Virus record (IMG/VR): IMGVR_UViG_3300032157_000038
Location: 1-29,872 of that record
Direction: 5' to 3' (one strand)
Length of the DNA stretch: 29,872 nucleotides
From: a virus
The notes below the pieces were generated by a model. The model saw only the letters and a program-made list of their open reading frames with translations. It did no database searches and was not told the origin of the DNA. Position 1 is the stretch's first letter. Each line of letters starts with the position of its first letter. Shown here piece after piece: positions 10,067 to 28,244 of the stretch. A program made the position numbers and the translations under genes.

Positions 10067-13000
10067 TTATACTCTTAAATTCTGATCTGTAAGGTTGGCA
10101 ACAATTTGCACATTATTTACGGTTGCGGTAGACATGAATAATTCTGTTGGGCCAGCAACAATTTCAAATAGGTTACCGAATTGTGAATTAGCATTATTAG
10201 GAACAATAACTACTGAGCTAATAATTCTTGATAACTGTTGGTGAATAAATGCTGACAATTCAGACCAGAAGAATTTTTCACCAAAGTCCCAATTTCTAAT
10301 ATCGAAATAAATATCAACAGCTTGAATTACTCTTGTTTTAATTTCATTATCACTTATATTTGTTGATGGTGATTTAACAACCTTAATGGTTGCTTGCAAT
10401 TCTGCAGCAGCCTGTGGACCAAATAAAATCTTAAATGTTCCAGAGTTCCATATCATAGCATCACTAACCATTTTATATTTTTCTAAATCTTGAAATTGAA
10501 TTCTAAGTTCTTCAGTTGTTGGTGCATCTGGTTTTGATAATATTGTACCATTACTATTTTTCCAAATTATCATATCTCTATAGAAACTATCTGTAACAAC
10601 AATCATATCGATAATATTAGTTGGTGATGGATCGACTCGTTGATCAATTGGAGAATAATGACTCCATTTAAAATATAAAGGTAATCTTTCATTTTCTGGA
10701 ATATCAGTATTTTGTGTGAATACTTTACCATTTCTATCATAATGTTCTTTATCGAATACAGAGATATATACTAATCCTGTAGGATACACTGCTAGATTTG
10801 CTGTAGTGTTTGACTCGAATGAATAATAAATTCCATTTCCTGGAGGAGTATCTGCAATTAAGAAAGATTTATCTATAAAATTCGATGTCACTATTTCCGC
10901 TTTATTGATTATAGTATCTGTTCCAGCAAGCCATGGAAAATCAATTGCAATTTGTGCATTTGTTGTTGGATTAATATTATTGAAAAATGCGGTAACTTGA
11001 TTACCTACAGTTCTAAGAGTTGGATTTACAGGATCGAATAATAATTGACTAACGTTATTAATGAAAATTAAATCTGCTGTATCTAAATAAACAGTAGTTG
11101 GTGCTGGAGGATCATATTGACTTCCGGGACCTGCGCCACCCGGAAGTAATACACTCGAAATAATTGGAGCACTAAACATTTTGGTATTATCTACTAAATC
11201 AACAGGAAAGTAAACATATAAATTACCGGTTGCATTAGAAAGATTTGTTGCCCAAGAACCTATCCAAGGACGTGTACTTTGATATCCAGTAACTTCATTA
11301 TTGAAATATTCAAAAACAACTCTGTCGTCAGAACCTATTATTTCATTAAATCCATCAGGATTATCTGGAATACCGTCTTCATTGTTATCAACTAATGATA
11401 CCTCTACCTTGGATGGATCTACATAACCATCAAGTTGAGTAAAGACACCGGTAATGTTAAATAATACTTGTTCTGGTAAGAAAGCTTCGCAAGGAAGATC
11501 AATAGGATCAGGTGGATTATTATTATCAATTGTGCTATTAGTATTTACAAATGGCATAATTTCAATTGTATCTTGAAGTGCTTGACCTGTTGCACTATCA
11601 AGAACAATAACACCTGGTTCCCAGAAGAATCGAACATTTCTATAAGATTCGAAAACATAGACTCGTCCTCGTGCGGTTAAGTCATATGTAATAGTTCCAA
11701 GATCATTATTACTTGCAATGTTTATATATAATAAACCACTATCGGGATAATTTTGCCAGGTGGAATAAATTTGAGTTACTGGGGGAGTACCAATAACATC
11801 TGGTGGAGCATAATTCCAAGGCTGTTCTGCCTGATTAAGAACAAGTGGGGTTGTTTCTATAGATGTCCCCCATCTATTTCTTAATAAATCATAATATAAC
11901 CAGAATGAAATACCATCGTCTATTCTTTGAATAATTTCTGCAATTTCATCATTTGTTAAATCATTTCTAAAAACTGGAATTACTTTAACTGCTTCATAAT
12001 CAATTTGTTCTTCTACACCTAATTCAACAGGTCCAACAACAGCAAACGGATTCGATGGATCAACTATTAAAGGAAGACCATTTTGAATGACACTTTTAAC
12101 TGGTGCGGAATTTAAATTGCTAAAAACTGTTGGAAGTGTGGTAGAAGTTTTAGCAAATTCTACCACAGCACCCGGTGAAATAAAATTCCATGCCTGATAA
12201 ACATTATTAGGAATATTTGCAGCAGTTAATGTATTAACTAAACCTACCGCTGTTAAGGAATTTTTCGTACTTGTAAAAAATCCTGTATCATTTTTAAATT
12301 TTCGAGGGCTGGTCTGCCAAAATAATTTAGAACTAGGATCTGTTGATATAGGAGCAAGAGGATTGGTATTATCTACAGTTGGTACAAGATTTAGCAATGA
12401 TCTACCTGTTGGTTGAGTAGGTGATGGATTAACTCGAATTGTACTTTCGAATTGTGGGAGATATTCGTCATAGAAGAACGCGGATATTTGTGAATTTCTT
12501 AACATTTCTTGAATAGTGTTTATTAAGATATTATCAATATTACCAGCATTAGATACATCTTGAACAACTTCAATTAACACATCTTGATTATCTCTGTATA
12601 AGGCGCCGTCCTGTCCAAAAATAATTAAATCACGATGAAATCCAGTTGGATCATTTAAATCAATATAACGGCTTTGTCCGCTATAAGTTCTGTCAGTAGC
12701 TTGAATTTTTGCAATCTGATTACCATAAACAAGTGGAAGAACATTATAATCGCTTCCATTAACCATACGTGATTGAGTAGAAAATACTTCAGGGGCACGC
12801 AATCTAATCTGTTCATCTGTTTCTGCCGCGGCAGCATTTCCAATTGTTTGTTCTAGATTAAATACAAGTCTGAGAACATATTGTTGTTGATCGAACCCTA
12901 TGTATGGAATATTAATTTGAAGACCTTGTGCATCATCTGGACGAATAACAAGTGCTTGATCTGCACTAACACGTACCCATGCTCTAAATAAACCAGTCGG

Positions 13001-14056
13001 TACATTACCAAAATTGCCATCAGCAAAGCGAATATTAACTGTATTATTGGGACCGGAAATTACAGAGAAAATATTTCTCTCAGCAAAATGAATACTATTA
13101 TATATAATATTTTCACCAGCAAGGGCAGGTACTTTAACCCATTTATTAATTACAATACCATTTTGATCTGTTTCTTGAACGTAAACATCATCTTGATTAA
13201 TATTTTGAATATTAATAGGAAATAAACGATTAGGTACAGGAAATTCAAAGTTAGAATCTACATTAAGTAAATTACCTTGCTTAAAATATAAAAAGAAACC
13301 TGTATTATCTGAAGCTACTCCTAAACTATCATTTCTATAAATGAAATGGAAAGCGTTGTCTGGATCAGGATCACGTTCAAAAATTGTCATATTTGTAATG
13401 AAATCTGGATTACAGATATCAATTGGATATGTTTGCCCACTAACCGCAATTGATGCAGGATAGGTAACGTTTAGACGTTTGATGTTATTTAATTGATACA
13501 AATCTGTCGGAATTGAGCCAATTGTGCCACTTTTTGTCGGGCGCCCAAACGGATTAAGCGTGCTAAAAGCGGCATTGCAAATTTGTATAAATTGGTCGAA
13601 CCAATCAGAATTGTTTGGATCATTCCAGAACACTGACACATCATTAATAGCAACACCATTGGCATCTATTAGTGGTTGATTGGTTTGAACTGCGGCAATT
13701 TTAAATAATCCACTTGCAGGAATATTTCTACGAGGAATGTAATTAACCATCTGAGCAAGACGGACAATGCTTTCTCTGCGCTCTGCGGTGTCAATGAAGT
13801 TTTCACGACTGTTAAGATCTGTTCTGAATGCAAGGCTTGTACCAAAGTAAGCAAGTAATTCAATAATTGCAATAAACTCAGAACTTTCAATATAGTCATT
13901 GAAATCTTCCGGATAGTAAGCCTGTATGTAATTAATTAAGGCTTGCTTTAAGGTATCAAAGTCATAAGCAGTATAATCAATAAATTGGAAGGCTTTAAAG
14001 ACTTTCTTGTAATCTTCTGCCGCAAACAAGTTGGATTGGCGAATTGATTCTGACAT
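10067..14056 (-). CDS. gp6: Baseplate wedge protein gp6-like (baseplate J type), 1329 aa
   Basis: The gp6/baseplate-J family forms the ring that joins wedges around the baseplate hub. The N-terminus holds the expected helical region (DYIESSEFIAIIELLAYFGTSLAFR, about residues 53-78) followed by ERRESIVRLAQMVNYIPRR. Near residues 400-440 is the J-type motif TIGNAAAAETDEQIRLRAPE followed by MVNGSDY. The protein is about twice the length of T4 gp6 (about 660 aa); the extra sequence is mainly beta-rich and follows the J-type core. Its ATG overlaps the gp25 stop codon in a TAATG junction, implying translational coupling, and the giant protein follows after 3 bases. Gene order 25-6-giant matches the T4 wedge cluster 25-6-7. 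Confidence 0.85.
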   Translation of the reverse strand: MSESIRQSNLFAAEDYKKVFKAFQFIDYTAYDFDTLKQALINYIQAYYPEDFNDYIESSEFIAIIELLAYFGTSLAFRTDLNSRENFIDTAERRESIVRLAQMVNYIPRRNIPASGLFKIAAVQTNQPLIDANGVAINDVSVFWNDPNNSDWFDQFIQICNAAFSTLNPFGRPTKSGTIGSIPTDLYQLNNIKRLNVTYPASIAVSGQTYPIDICNPDFITNMTIFERDPDPDNAFHFIYRNDSLGVASDNTGFFLYFKQGNLLNVDSNFEFPVPNRLFPINIQNINQDDVYVQETDQNGIVINKWVKVPALAGENIIYNSIHFAERNIFSVISGPNNTVNIRFADGNFGNVPTGLFRAWVRVSADQALVIRPDDAQGLQINIPYIGFDQQQYVLRLVFNLEQTIGNAAAAETDEQIRLRAPEVFSTQSRMVNGSDYNVLPLVYGNQIAKIQATDRTYSGQSRYIDLNDPTGFHRDLIIFGQDGALYRDNQDVLIEVVQDVSNAGNIDNILINTIQEMLRNSQISAFFYDEYLPQFESTIRVNPSPTQPTGRSLLNLVPTVDNTNPLAPISTDPSSKLFWQTSPRKFKNDTGFFTSTKNSLTAVGLVNTLTAANIPNNVYQAWNFISPGAVVEFAKTSTTLPTVFSNLNSAPVKSVIQNGLPLIVDPSNPFAVVGPVELGVEEQIDYEAVKVIPVFRNDLTNDEIAEIIQRIDDGISFWLYYDLLRNRWGTSIETTPLVLNQAEQPWNYAPPDVIGTPPVTQIYSTWQNYPDSGLLYINIASNNDLGTITYDLTARGRVYVFESYRNVRFFWEPGVIVLDSATGQALQDTIEIMPFVNTNSTIDNNNPPDPIDLPCEAFLPEQVLFNITGVFTQLDGYVDPSKVEVSLVDNNEDGIPDNPDGFNEIIGSDDRVVFEYFNNEVTGYQSTRPWIGSWATNLSNATGNLYVYFPVDLVDNTKMFSAPIISSVLLPGGAGPGSQYDPPAPTTVYLDTADLIFINNVSQLLFDPVNPTLRTVGNQVTAFFNNINPTTNAQIAIDFPWLAGTDTIINKAEIVTSNFIDKSFLIADTPPGNGIYYSFESNTTANLAVYPTGLVYISVFDKEHYDRNGKVFTQNTDIPENERLPLYFKWSHYSPIDQRVDPSPTNIIDMIVVTDSFYRDMIIWKNSNGTILSKPDAPTTEELRIQFQDLEKYKMVSDAMIWNSGTFKILFGPQAAAELQATIKVVKSPSTNISDNEIKTRVIQAVDIYFDIRNWDFGEKFFWSELSAFIHQQLSRIISSVVIVPNNANSQFGNLFEIVAGPTELFMSTATVNNVQIVANLTDQNLRV

Positions 14057-24309: not shown

Positions 24310-24945
24310 ATGAATATATTACCTTACGAAATTATAAACGATGAAATTATTTGGTCAGCAAGCTACAGATTTAGGGACGGATCACCAAGACCGAAATGTA
24401 TTAATCCAGGATGTAATAGTCCAGTAACCTGTTCATCTGGCGGAGAATCTAGTTCACCATCTTCCAGAACACTTCGAACAGTGTGCCACAAATGTCATAG
24501 AGCAAGCTATGGAAAAGATTCTTTACCGTTTGGTGTAACTAGTTTTAAGAAAGATTATTGCGAGAATATTGATGGTCGTATTGATGGCATACCATGTACC
24601 GCATCTAATTTATCTAGTGCTCAATTAGAACTTGATCATATAGATGGAAATCATATAAACAATATTCCGGGTAATGTTCAAACATTATGCAAGAATTGTC
24701 ATTCTAAGAAATCGGTTCTTGCAGGTGATTATCGGAAGTCATGTAAATCACATCGTTCGCCTTTATCATCGGCAGAAAGTTTATTGACATGGTCGAATAA
24801 TTTTTCACAGCTATTTGATTTAGTGGATTATTCCAAAACTGATCCCAATGAACAAAAGTCCAACCTTTATAATTCAGAAATCGATCAACTACAAAATCTA
24901 ATTCCTGAGGATACACCACCCACTTCTCTTTCCGGGATATCTTAA
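24310..24945 (+). CDS. HNH endonuclease, 211 aa
   Basis: Zinc-bound HNH nuclease. The core is LELDHIDGNHINN (about residues 106-118) followed by NVQTLCKNCHSKKS (about 122-135). Upstream Cys pairs (CINPGC, CHKCH, and a Cys near residue 87) suggest a second zinc site. The ATG has a strong AGAGAGGA ribosome site. The last 77 residues have no recognisable domain and are encoded opposite the end of the convergent nuclease gene. It could be a free-standing homing nuclease (common next to replication genes in T4-like phages) or a phage DNA-processing enzyme; sequence alone does not decide. Confidence 0.8.
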   Translation: MNILPYEIINDEIIWSASYRFRDGSPRPKCINPGCNSPVTCSSGGESSSPSSRTLRTVCHKCHRASYGKDSLPFGVTSFKKDYCENIDGRIDGIPCTASNLSSAQLELDHIDGNHINNIPGNVQTLCKNCHSKKSVLAGDYRKSCKSHRSPLSSAESLLTWSNNFSQLFDLVDYSKTDPNEQKSNLYNSEIDQLQNLIPEDTPPTSLSGIS

Positions 24946-25285
24946 TAAGAATTAAATTTAAGTCGCCGGGATCCTCGACGTCCTTCTGCTGTTGGATCCA
25001 GTCGTCGAGGATCTTCACATCTGCATACCACAATTGATGAAAGGGAAAATCTGCATAACTTTTGCATTCAATATTCCAATATTTCCAAGATTCAGGCGGA
25101 TGAATATCTCCCTTTTTACTTTGAATTTGGGCGTTTCCTAACGATGTTTTTCGGAAATTATTTTTGCCACCGACGAACGCACCAGACGATGGAATTCTGA
25201 TGAAAGATTCATTGTAGGTTGCTGATAAGAATTTCGCTACTTCTAATTCCCATGCATTACCTTTAGCCTTTGATTTGGATGGCAT
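24704..25285 (-). CDS. PD-(D/E)XK nuclease, Hjc-like Holliday junction resolvase, 193 aa
   Basis: The pattern fits the archaeal-Hjc/RecU-like resolvase family: basic N-terminus, GNAWELEVAKFL (Glu13/Glu15), IPSSGAF (Ser33-Ser34-Gly35), GDI (Asp60) and IECKSY (Glu73, Lys75), which together form the PD-(D/E)XK active site. It has its own late promoter at 25302-25310 and a ribosome site AGGGGA. In T4 the late resolvase is endonuclease VII (gp49); a late-expressed Hjc-like enzyme here may replace it to trim branched DNA before packaging. That role is inferred. The last 80 residues overlap the HNH gene on the opposite strand by 242 bases. VRR-NUC or other restriction-like nucleases are alternatives. 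Confidence 0.75.
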   Translation of the reverse strand: MPSKSKAKGNAWELEVAKFLSATYNESFIRIPSSGAFVGGKNNFRKTSLGNAQIQSKKGDIHPPESWKYWNIECKSYADFPFHQLWYADVKILDDWIQQQKDVEDPGDLNLILIKISRKEKWVVYPQELDFVVDRFLNYKGWTFVHWDQFWNNPLNQIAVKNYSTMSINFLPMIKANDVIYMTSDNHLQEPIS

Positions 25286-25348: not shown

Positions 25349-25972
25349 ATGTATACATTTGATTATTTGAAGGCTGTAAATCACGCCATGCTTTATGAAG
25401 TTGGCGGATTTTGGGACCTATGGACATTAGGAACTAGAAGTGGTTTAAACTTATCAGCATGTGGTTATGTAGATGACCCCGATGATACTGGTGGTGAAAC
25501 AAAATATGGAATTTCAAAAAATAATAATCCAGATCTTGATATTAGACACTTAAATTGGGCCGGCGCAAAAGAAAGATTTTATGAAAATTATTGGTTGCCC
25601 GGCAAGGCTGATCAGATCGAAAATCGTATAGCAGTTTTACACTTCGATGGTTGCATAAATCACGGGGTCAGTCAAGCATCTAAATTTCTACAACGAGCAG
25701 TAGGTGCCGATGATGATGGAGTAGTAGGGCCACAAACCATTGAACTTGTTAACGCAGCAAACCCTATCGATGTATGTAATAGTATTTGTGATCAACGTGA
25801 ACAATTTTATTATAACATTGTTGAAGACAATCCTTCGCAAGAAAAATATATTGACGGATGGATAAGACGCATTGATGAGATGCGTGAATACACCACAAAT
25901 CCTTACGCAGTGTTCAGTCTTAAGGACTTAATCAATATTATTGTGGCCTATTTGTCGGGCGAGATAAGTTAG
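25349..25972 (+). CDS. Endolysin, GH108-type N-acetylmuramidase, 207 aa
   Basis: Hydrolyses peptidoglycan for lysis. The N-terminal catalytic domain has Glu17 in LYEVGGF and the hallmark GYVDDPDDTGGETKYGIS (residues 39-56); GH108 enzymes usually join these as EGGY-x-x-x-x-D-x-GG-x-T-x-xGI, so here about 18 residues separate the Glu motif from GYVDDP. A subfamily with such an insertion exists to my recollection. Residues 96-135 (VLHFDGCINHG, KFLQRAVGADDDGVVGPQT) fit the peptidoglycan-binding 3-type region. There is no signal peptide or membrane segment, so it needs a holin that I do not see in this window. AGGAG at 9-base spacing and a late-like promoter fit late expression. Confidence 0.85.
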   Translation: MYTFDYLKAVNHAMLYEVGGFWDLWTLGTRSGLNLSACGYVDDPDDTGGETKYGISKNNNPDLDIRHLNWAGAKERFYENYWLPGKADQIENRIAVLHFDGCINHGVSQASKFLQRAVGADDDGVVGPQTIELVNAANPIDVCNSICDQREQFYYNIVEDNPSQEKYIDGWIRRIDEMREYTTNPYAVFSLKDLINIIVAYLSGEIS

Positions 25973-25996
25973 TACATAATAGTAAACTATTTAAGC

Positions 25997-26032
25997 AAAA
26001 AATCAGGCTACAGGGTTGACGCGCCCTGTAGC
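25997..26032 (-). terminator. Intrinsic terminator for leftward transcription
   Basis: A perfect 9-bp stem (GCTACAGGG at 26007-26015, CCCTGTAGC at 26024-26032, 8-base loop). Read leftward it is followed after four bases by six T (A6 at 25997-26002 on the + strand). It would stop leftward RNA from the gp26-like operon before it runs antisense into the endolysin. On the + strand there is no T tract, so it is at best a weak rightward stop. Confidence 0.7.
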
Positions 26033-26060
26033 ACGTTCTAAATCAAATTGCGTATAGGTT

Positions 26061-26104
26061 TAAACTAAAGCAGATATAAACCCAAATCTTAATAAACTAA
26101 AGCA
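26061..26104. repeat. 12-bp direct repeat TAAACTAAAGCA, start-to-start 32 bp
   Basis: Exact copies at 26061-26072 and 26093-26104, three helical turns apart. A broken third version (TAAACTA, TTT, AAGCA) lies at 25983-25997 just after the endolysin. It may be a protein-binding site or an iteron; no function is shown by sequence alone. Confidence 0.6.
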
Positions 26105-26121
26105 AAATTATCAAAACACAA

Positions 26122-26530
26122 TTTAGGGTTGGCGAGCCTAGTTACAATTTCGCTGGCGTGTCGTTCGGAATGGAGCGCAACAGCCAATGTCTGTTGAGTG
26201 TGCAACAGCAAGTCATAAGAAAACAACCTATGTTGTTAGTAAGATGATAATGAAGTTTGTAGCGAGTATGTGAAAACAGGGTATGGCTCGCTAGCCGCGT
26301 AATTGGCTGACTGAAGGTAGATTACAATGCGGTGAGGATAACAAGGCTCTAAAGGCTGGGTCCCCCTTCCGAAACGCTAATAATGCGTGTAGTTGACATA
26401 ATCAATCCAACACTACGTGAAATATTTCGGTATCAGTTCTGGCGACGCAGGTGGCGTTTCCTATCCAAGGTTTTGGATACCCTTGGTCTGACTCTACCGG
26501 TGTTCATTTAAAACCATTAAGTTTAAGTGC
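26122..26530 (+). ncRNA. Candidate large structured RNA (no known family recognised)
   Basis: A segment of about 400 bases without any frame of useful length and visibly richer in G and C than its neighbours, packed with local stems: GGCGAG/TTCGCT (26131/26149), CAACAG/CTGTTG (26178/26191, 7-base loop), AACAAC/GTTGTT (26222/26232, 4-base loop), TAGCGAG/CTCGCTA (26260/26287), AGCC/GGCT (26293/26305), a 10-pair bulged stem (26386-26395 with 26408-26419), ACGC/GCGT (26445/26454), TATCCAA/TTGGATA (26462/26473, 4-base loop), and a long-range GGTAGA/TCTACC pairing (26316 with 26493). Several stems need G-U pairs that exist only in the rightward sense, so + is favoured. I cannot assign it to GOLLD, ROOL, tmRNA, RNase P or an intron. 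Stems were found by eye; the probability that some are chance is real. Confidence 0.45.
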
Positions 26531-26578
26531 GAAGCGATACAGATCGAAATGAAGAACGAAGCTGAGCTTGCGAAGCGA
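26528..26578. repeat. 10-bp direct repeat TGCGAAGCGA in a purine-rich segment
   Basis: Exact copies at 26528-26537 and 26569-26578, start to start 41 bp. Between and around them, short GAAGC/GCTT units can fold into alternative small hairpins. The segment lies between the candidate RNA and the end of the leftward 177-aa gene and contains no supportable gene; it may be the 3' edge of the RNA element. Confidence 0.5.
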
Positions 26579-26595
26579 GTGAATCATGAAGATCT

Positions 26596-26609
26596 CGGTC
26601 TTTAGACCG
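26596..26609. other. Short hairpin over the stop codon of the 177-aa gene
   Basis: A perfect CGGTC/GACCG stem with loop TTTA; the TAA stop of the leftward gene lies in the loop. No T tract follows on either strand, so it is not a standard terminator, but it could stabilise a 3' end. Confidence 0.4.
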
Positions 26610-27135
26610 CTTGTATTGATAGAACTTTTTTATAAATGCGTTTTATTAGTTTTATCACTTCTTGATTAGTATCGTCCATAATGGATAGGTATGACCTTAA
26701 TTGAATGTGATAGATCTCATTTGAAAATGTCTCGATTCCTAAAACTCCTGTGAATTTTTGAAAATACAGAGATACAAACGCATTGATTCGTAACTCTACT
26801 TCTCCATTTATATCGGGTAATTCCTCTTGACTACGAAGTTGCACATGTCGTATGAATTTAATCTCACCTTTAATGATATATACCTCAGTGAATAGATGAG
26901 GTCCTTCTAATTTCTTCATGTATATGAAGCCAGGATGAAGTGTCTTAGATGTATCTAATTTAATATTAGATTCTTTGTCAGGTAATCCGTCCAGTTCATA
27001 TGGACTCCACTTGATATTTTGTGAGTCGAGTAATCTTGATAATTCATATACCCAACGATGTTTAGGATAACGCTCCCAGCATTCAATGTCATCTTTAGGG
27101 ATGTCTAGCTCTTGAGTTTCTGTCTTTCTGTTCAT
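26602..27135 (-). CDS. Conserved-looking hypothetical phage protein, 177 aa
   Basis: I do not recognise the family. It is a soluble, mixed alpha/beta protein with an aromatic N-terminal motif (CWERYPKHRWVYELSRLL, residues 19-36), a central beta-rich part (HLFTEVYIIKGEIKFIRHVQLR) and a basic C-terminal helix (VIKLIKRIYKKVLSI). There are no membrane segments or catalytic motif. The ATG follows an AAGAGG ribosome site, 10 bases after the small 72-aa gene, in the late operon headed by the gp26-like gene. Co-transcription with baseplate genes suggests a virion or tail-assembly function. Confidence 0.65.
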   Translation of the reverse strand: MNRKTETQELDIPKDDIECWERYPKHRWVYELSRLLDSQNIKWSPYELDGLPDKESNIKLDTSKTLHPGFIYMKKLEGPHLFTEVYIIKGEIKFIRHVQLRSQEELPDINGEVELRINAFVSLYFQKFTGVLGIETFSNEIYHIQLRSYLSIMDDTNQEVIKLIKRIYKKVLSIQAV

Positions 27136-27372: not shown

Positions 27373-28221
27373 TTATGAAAAATTTACAGGATTAAAATCA
27401 ATGTCACTTTCCCATTCATGTTCACATTTTTCACATTTGGCAGTGAATGTTTTTTTAATACCAATTTTATTAATCTCTTCTATCATATCACTTATTTTAT
27501 CAGCACTTTTTTTATCGATGTTTTGCAAAAATTCTTTGATATATCTGGGTTCTGATACATTAATATTATCTTTCTCATTGACTACTTTCACTACACCATT
27601 TGTCATTAATTCGAATTTTATGATTGCCATATTTTTAAATGCTTCAGTGAATAATGCTGATCTCTTTTCTTTTGTTATATCATCATTTTCAATAGATCTT
27701 GTTATTTTTCTTCTTTCAAATTCTGAATGTAATGCCTTAAGCAAATCGGGGAAGGAATATGGTTTTACAAATACAGATAATCCTGAATCTAAATAAACAA
27801 TGTATTCTGGTTCAAGTGTGTCCATATTATCTAAGGCATACTGCAAATCTAGTTTGAATAGATTATCATGATTGCAAGCAGGACAATCTAGTCGTGTTTC
27901 TAATGATTCATTAAATGTTGCATAGCGAACTGCGGTGATTAAAGCGTCAATATCGTTGGTCAACAGTGCTCGTGGCTGTTTAACGGCCGGTACACAACTT
28001 GTTAAAACTTCTATTATAGCCTCACCATTTAATAAAGCATCTGGATTCTTAAGTATGAGTTCGTCCTTTCCAGTCATAGGTAATACACCAACTTCACCCT
28101 GTTCATTGAGACTAATAACCCCGTCTTTATAATAACTAGTACCACTAGGTATTTTTAGATAGAGTTTAATCGACCTAAAATATTGTTTTAATGGATTACC
28201 TTGCTGGACTGCTTGATTCAT
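27373..28221 (-). CDS. gp26: Baseplate hub protein gp26-like (T4 base plate protein family), 282 aa
   Basis: Resembles the T4 base plate protein family that contains gp26, which takes part in hub assembly. The core has GVLPMTGKDELILKNPDALL (about residues 45-64), then LTSCVP and LLTNDIDALITAVRYATF. A split zinc-ribbon appears as CPAC (113-116) and CEKC (about 263-266) before a conserved end (DIDFNPVNFS). Two ATGs exist: 28227 has its ribosome site AGAGG only one base away, whereas 28221 has it at 7 bases, so 28221 is chosen. A late promoter at 28272-28280 drives it; the AUA-start gene and the 177-aa gene follow. Confidence 0.78.
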   Translation of the reverse strand: MNQAVQQGNPLKQYFRSIKLYLKIPSGTSYYKDGVISLNEQGEVGVLPMTGKDELILKNPDALLNGEAIIEVLTSCVPAVKQPRALLTNDIDALITAVRYATFNESLETRLDCPACNHDNLFKLDLQYALDNMDTLEPEYIVYLDSGLSVFVKPYSFPDLLKALHSEFERRKITRSIENDDITKEKRSALFTEAFKNMAIIKFELMTNGVVKVVNEKDNINVSEPRYIKEFLQNIDKKSADKISDMIEEINKIGIKKTFTAKCEKCEHEWESDIDFNPVNFS

Positions 28222-28244
28222 ATTCATACCTCTGAAAATATTTT

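Follow-up and report, generated by a model that had tools for sequence, protein, structure and literature searches.

The stretch of DNA analysed here (hereafter the window) is a contig of 29,872 nucleotides from a T4-like phage (29.9 kb; IMG/VR record IMGVR_UViG_3300032157_000038), and our subject is the 629-base gap between two of its genes. The window carries gp46/47-like and late sigma genes, a PDDEXK resolvase, a GH108 endolysin, an orphan gene and a gp26-like baseplate hub. The gap (25973-26601) lies between the endolysin gene upstream (25349..25972, + strand; Pfam PF05838 E 7.7e-16, PHROG 315 E 4e-44) and the convergent orphan gene downstream (26602..27135, − strand; ATP-grasp-like fold by AlphaFold/Foldseek), with the hub gene beyond (27373-28227, − strand, i.e., opposite to the endolysin), and it contains no gene, transfer RNA (tRNA) or Rfam match. 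An earlier note, made from the letters alone, had proposed an unrecognised large structured RNA at 26122-26530. We find at 26119-26511 the core of a structured RNA that is conserved, non-coding and read rightward, that holds two pseudoknots and that occurs in a family of T4-like jumbo-phage contigs.

A Conserved Structured RNA in the Gap

Syntenic relatives were collected by an IMG/VR search with both flanking proteins, and blastn of the gap against them gave 69–76% identity across ~500 nt in more than 10 loci. Two pattern scans and a profile search brought the collection to 57 loci, of which 29 are non-redundant (loci at least 97% alike removed); pattern matches in genome contigs were chance 20-mers and were rejected by the profile search. 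The homologue-bearing contigs reach 385 kb and are therefore those of jumbo phages. As judged from these matches, the family extends well past close relatives, and DNA searches of phage records gave no match for the window RNA among 50,697 records and chance matches only for the RNA of a further member, L220.

The description in the earlier note of some 400 bases with no usable frame and with G+C above that of the surroundings proved accurate. G+C is 0.435-0.465 over 26100-26599 vs 0.27-0.40 in most flanking 200-base windows, the longest stop-free run of the core on the + strand is 52 codons, the 29 homologues share no open frame and their lengths differ by insertions and deletions that are not in threes.

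Where at least eight short stems had been counted in the window, an alignment of 22 cores (alignment A2) yields 14 helices with 61 pairs, the two pseudoknots included. Helices P5, P11 and P12, whose columns are unreliable owing to alignment shifts, were omitted from this final structure, and pseudoknot PK2 was re-registered on the columns of the relatives. Standard pairs occupy 97.8% of 1341 cells, a share that falls to 34–42% once the 3′ partners are slid by one to three columns. Two-sided compensatory changes occur in 38 of the 61 pairs vs 19.5±2.1 in shuffles, none of 500 shuffles being as high, and the covariation score is 0.429 vs 0.165±0.009 in the control; most of the nested helices are also predicted independently by RNAalifold. 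The covariation check on collected homologues that the earlier note had called for was made with a phylogeny-aware null, scripted after the idea of R-scape, in which inferred substitutions are shuffled along the tree (60 simulations): ten helices score above all 60 simulations and single pairs reach E 0-0.05. Covariation is thus present, homologues are not confined to close relatives and the interval conserves no short protein, so that none of the three findings named beforehand as speaking against a structured RNA was made.

The strand follows from the mispairs. Within the aligned helices (P5, PK2, P11 and P12 left out) there are 107 G-U cells and 14 A-C cells, 10 of the latter in one mis-registered helix. 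Because A-C cells would turn into G-U when read from the opposite strand, the imbalance shows a rightward sense, as the G-U pairs in the window's own stems had already hinted.

Architecture of the Element

The conserved element is larger than the interval first proposed, whose structured core is nonetheless real: gap alignment in syntenic relatives and blastn place 5′ hairpins, core and a 3′ hairpin within 25974..26600 (ends approximate; + strand, as for all parts below), and the RNA gene is probably ~600 nt long. Its 5′ hairpin A (25980..25989) pairs TAGT with ACTA in the window and AACAG/CTGTT, ACAAC/GTTGT and similar in relatives, a covariation read by eye in the alignment. Hairpin B (26007..26032) has a 9-bp stem, GCTACAGGG/CCCTGTAGC, and the loop TTGACGCG (YTGACGCG in relatives); in the window T6 follows it on the minus strand, where it could also serve as a terminator of leftward transcripts.

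The core, on which the covariation tests were based (26119..26511), opens with the P1 hairpin (26127..26153, GGTT/AGCC), whose loop forms pseudoknot PK1 (helix 2; 26132-26134 with 26151-26153; two-sided changes in 3/3 pairs, as GCG/CGC, ACG/CGT and ACA/TGT). P2a (26155..26185, GGC/GCC) encloses P2b (26162-26177, CGTTC/GAGCG), the two being helices 3 and 4; in the P2b loop, positions 26167 and 26172 co-vary as G-G or A-A, possibly a non-Watson-Crick loop pair. There follow P3 (26191..26208, helix 5), P4 (26212..26248, helix 6) with the variable hairpin P5 inside it and two-sided changes in 4/5 pairs, and P6 (26260..26293, helix 7), the strongest helix, with two-sided changes in 6/7 pairs and a score of 129.9 vs a null maximum of 48.4. 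P7a/P7b (26295..26332, helices 8-10) carries a loop that forms PK2 (26311-26314 with ~26433-26436), which is CTGA/TCAG or TTAT/ATAA in relatives and is poorly registered in the window's own sequence. P8 (26336..26363, helix 11) precedes the P9 outer stem (26371..26428), which surrounds P9 (26375-26387) and P10 (26389-26416; helices 12-14 in all). The P10 loop ACATAATCAATC is near-invariant and, with GTGAAAACAGGGTATG, makes up the very conserved unpaired loops. The long-range closure suggested earlier, GGTAGA (26316-26321) with TCTACC (26493-26498), is confined to the window, relatives having neither sequence; the long-range pairings that are conserved are PK1 and PK2 instead.

Toward the 3′ end lies a hairpin ACGC/GCGT (26445..26457; stem read by eye per homologue) with the first copy of a short repeat in its loop (GGTG, 26450-26453), and the second copy (GGTG, 26499-26502) stands in the 3′ tail (26499..26503). 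In the 3′ hairpin region (26553..26590) relatives share GAGYGnAGTTTACGAAGCGA and a covarying basal stem; this sequence has no second occurrence elsewhere in the loci examined. At the other end, GCTAAAATAG is conserved at the stop codon of the lysin gene and is a candidate, no more, for a phage promoter; the other late promoters of the window phage read GATAAATA/CATAAATA.

Matched Repeats in a Loop and the 3′ Tail

The two short repeats are coupled in an unusual way: alignment columns 26450-26454 (hairpin loop) and 26499-26503 (3′ tail, ~49 nt downstream) are identical to each other, and both vary between phages. The diagonal 26451-26454 × 26500-26503 scores 79.1 vs a null maximum of 50.9, and 26451 equals 26500, 26452 equals 26501 and 26453 equals 26502 in 28/28 sequences, with two or three alleles per column. 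The four-letter sequence is GTCA in most phages; the window has GGTG, L010 GGCA, L039 GTCC, L052 CCCA, L032 GTTA and L043 GTCG. The fifth position is mostly matched (A/A, T/T, G/G), with some A/G. Other direct-identity signals in the same test are shadows of helices or of a two-clade split. Matched repeats recur in divergent types of the RNA, where L022 has two copies of CAGGCAAAG, L220 two of AGATGAA and L218 two of AGATGAT; a GCCTGAA pair in L207 is possibly due to chance. A complement of the repeat was sought from −450 to +650 and none was consistent, so that a partner in cis was rejected. Two mutually equal sequences with no partner in the molecule suggest a common partner outside the RNA.

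Gene Contexts and Cultured Relatives

Related or paralogous copies of the RNA occupy differing gene contexts, twice within one phage contig. Contigs G001 and G003 each have a second type I copy at another place (L047/L245 and L244), copies L043 and L065 are near PhoH-like genes, and L047 and L244 stand beside PhoH-like or other genes. The slot of the window RNA holds, in other phages, more divergent RNAs that share its architecture: those of L022, L198 and L002 are called "type II" and that of L207 "type III." Their cores do not align with the window type, but recognisable blocks are kept; L218 and L220 are further members near the same neighbours. Homing-endonuclease-like open reading frames (ORFs; PHROG 314) directly adjoin the RNA gene at L198:3527-4138 (−), L002:6769-7242 (+) and L244:934-1401 (−), the last being a paralogous RNA locus, and such ORFs may account for swaps of the RNA core between types.

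By their gp46-like protein (53% identity) the nearest cultured relatives are the Pseudomonas aeruginosa jumbo phages PA5oct, Paride and kin, of which Paride is reportedly a killer of dormant cells. The PA5oct genome (NC_071039) is ORF-poor at 75929-76729, in the same slot between resolvase and gp26-like hub, where tiny predicted ORFs cover the sequence, and two further diverged copies lie at ~12900-13500 and 246155. RefSeq annotates 246116-246734 as a "putative lncRNA" (ncRNA004, 619 nt; long non-coding RNA), with the remark "annotation based on RNA-Seq data." A sigma-70-like promoter stands upstream of the 75.9-kb copy (TTGACA-17-TATAAT, 12/12), and boxes of the same kind can be read from the sequence before the 12.9-kb copy (TTGACA-17-TATAAT) and the lncRNA copy (TTGACA-17-TAAACT). 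A type II profile finds all three copies at the same model position (E 0.0016, 0.21 and 0.47), the best matches outside the close family among all loci searched, and they share GGATnnTGCkCTGGTmGAAAmAGA..ACACCAACA with the type II RNAs of that slot. Given this weak similarity and the shared slot, PA5oct and Paride very likely carry three diverged paralogous members. The resemblance of ncRNA004 and its two unannotated paralogues to the window RNA lies in the jumbo-phage setting and in the one paralogue that holds the same gene slot; ncRNA004 differs in having no directly detectable sequence similarity to the window RNA, and its record proposes neither structure nor function. The annotated mini-ORFs gp340, gp339 and gp338 of PA5oct (L221; 75920-76516) overlie the proposed RNA gene and are unlikely to be real genes.

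Neighbouring Genes

The conserved orphan protein (26602-27135) has no match in Pfam or PHROG. Its AlphaFold model (mean predicted local distance difference test score, pLDDT, 84) is similar to ATP-grasp domains, with E 2.5e-4 for the best PDB match and 2e-5 for viral ATP-grasp proteins, and the protein is apparently a truncated domain of this kind. We considered it as an RNA-binding partner and rejected it: the predicted model is ATP-grasp-like, with no RNA-binding fold, and the paralogous RNAs are without that neighbour. Further upstream in the window, an HNH endonuclease gene (24310-24945, +) overlaps the convergent resolvase gene (24704-25285) by ~240 bases. At L220:4340-6100 two gp26-like baseplate hub genes are adjacent, in tandem. 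Sinorhizobium phage Phosso (L223) has, in the same neighbourhood, a 1-kb stretch free of ORFs (229759-230772) that follows the resolvase gene, is without similarity to these RNAs and may hold another large RNA.

Comparison with Known RNA Classes

The earlier note had left a choice between membership in the GOLLD or ROOL classes of large phage RNA and a new class, and the latter branch holds. A search of Rfam 15, at gathering score and at E<=10, returned chance matches only: the GOLLD, ROOL, transfer-messenger RNA (tmRNA) and group I intron models that had been singled out for searching gave no match at gathering score (for GOLLD, none at E<=10 on the window stretch), nor did the group II intron models match. 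ARAGORN and Rfam found neither a tRNA-like domain nor a tag reading frame. As far as these models can detect, then, the window RNA is no GOLLD, ROOL, tmRNA or group I intron; it belongs to a family new to Rfam and, as a kind, joins the large ornate phage RNAs. We take the Rfam entries of GOLLD and ROOL to be RF01998 and RF03087. Both are, like the window RNA, large, ornate, pseudoknotted and phage-encoded. They often lie near a tRNA island, whereas ARAGORN found zero tRNA in the 29.9-kb window, and the window RNA further differs from them in lacking a covariance-model match and in having identity-coupled short repeats. Other phage lncRNAs are lnc001 and lnc002 of Staphylococcus phage K (0.6-1.2 kb, one with its own early promoter; PMC9241854), though that phage is unrelated and the likeness is one of description only.

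What the RNA May Do

As copies occur in several contexts, and as PA5oct has a transcript and promoters, we lean toward a stand-alone large structured non-coding RNA, the product of a gene that would act in trans and not as a cis-acting leader or untranslated region (UTR). Its compact pseudoknotted body would display one 5-nt sequence twice, in a hairpin loop and in the 3′ tail, and both copies might touch one and the same external partner sequence, i.e., bind another RNA or a DNA bivalently. Such contact of one partner at two equal sites is a tentative proposal, with chances well below even, which we hypothesize to be the least strained account of the matched sequences. More speculatively, the RNAs may form a new bivalent class in which a pseudoknotted scaffold shows the same recognition sequence twice, with a sequence proper to each RNA gene, and so grips one partner nucleic acid; jumbo phages would carry up to three such genes with differing recognition sequences.

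Several observations weigh against this account in one part or another. The folding energy of the single sequence is ordinary (z −1.0 on + and −0.7 on −), which is why comparison between sequences was needed, and the sigma-70-like match at 25952-25980 is weak (9/12). The link from the window type to PA5oct runs via the type II RNAs (E = 0.0016, 0.21, 0.47) and synteny, and no matched repeats were clearly found in the PA5oct copies. Finally, the repeat can differ between paralogues of a single phage, as GTCAT and GTCAA do in G003, and a single shared target per phage is therefore unsupported.

The main rival to bivalent binding is a homo-oligomeric RNA cage, in which loops would join copies of the RNA and the matched loop and tail would reflect the symmetry of assembly, with no foreign target. 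This is possible, if on the unlikely side, and rests on analogy with GOLLD and ROOL, objects of the same kind that form RNA-only cages (PMC12286853). The very conserved unpaired loops would suit it, but known intermolecular contacts are complementary or self-complementary, whereas the matched repeats are equal and not complementary to each other, GGTG and CCCA, for instance, are alleles that do not self-pair, and there is no Rfam match.

An action in cis, as the 3′ UTR of the endolysin messenger RNA (mRNA) or as an insulator between convergent late transcripts, with control of mRNA stability or termination, seems to us improbable. The element does begin directly after the lysin stop codon, between convergent genes, and hairpin B with its minus-strand T-run is terminator-like, but copies without an adjoining lysin occur in other contexts (L043, L047, L065, L244, L218, L220, PA5oct), the PA5oct copies have promoters of their own, and pseudoknots and covariation over 400 nt exceed a terminator's needs.

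The bridge RNA of IS110 elements holds two recognition segments in one RNA, and their core sequence must be shared. By analogy, the window RNA might be a recombination or guide RNA that recognises two nucleic-acid sites through two segments with a shared core, together with a protein; a shared crossover core would yield an identity-coupled loop and tail, and recombination proteins (gp46/47-like, PDDEXK resolvase) are encoded in its neighbourhood throughout. We rate this as very improbable. The coupled sequences here are a loop and a tail ~49 nt apart, the neighbours in question are ordinary T4-like genes, no target was found, and no IS110 transposase (PF02371) was found in ten related contigs, although these are fragments and the absence is not strict. 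A mobile ribozyme, i.e., an intron-like element spread with homing endonucleases, can be given hardly any credence: PHROG 314 ORFs do stand beside the RNA in L198, L002 and L244 (E 6e-6, 7e-5, 0.006), but such ORFs are absent from most loci, and the endonuclease might do no more than exploit the site. Intron models of group I or II do not match, and the RNA is intergenic in all loci examined, interrupting no gene.

The large ornate RNAs of phages rank with the biggest bacterial RNAs that lack a known function, and the family described here, absent from Rfam, adds one that has a conserved place in a group of jumbo phages and occurs in multiple copies. Its coupled identical 5-nt elements, of which we know no example in another large phage RNA, are a concrete and unusual clue to mechanism. 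The probable reach of the family to the P. aeruginosa phages PA5oct and Paride would make its function testable by removal of the gene in a laboratory host.
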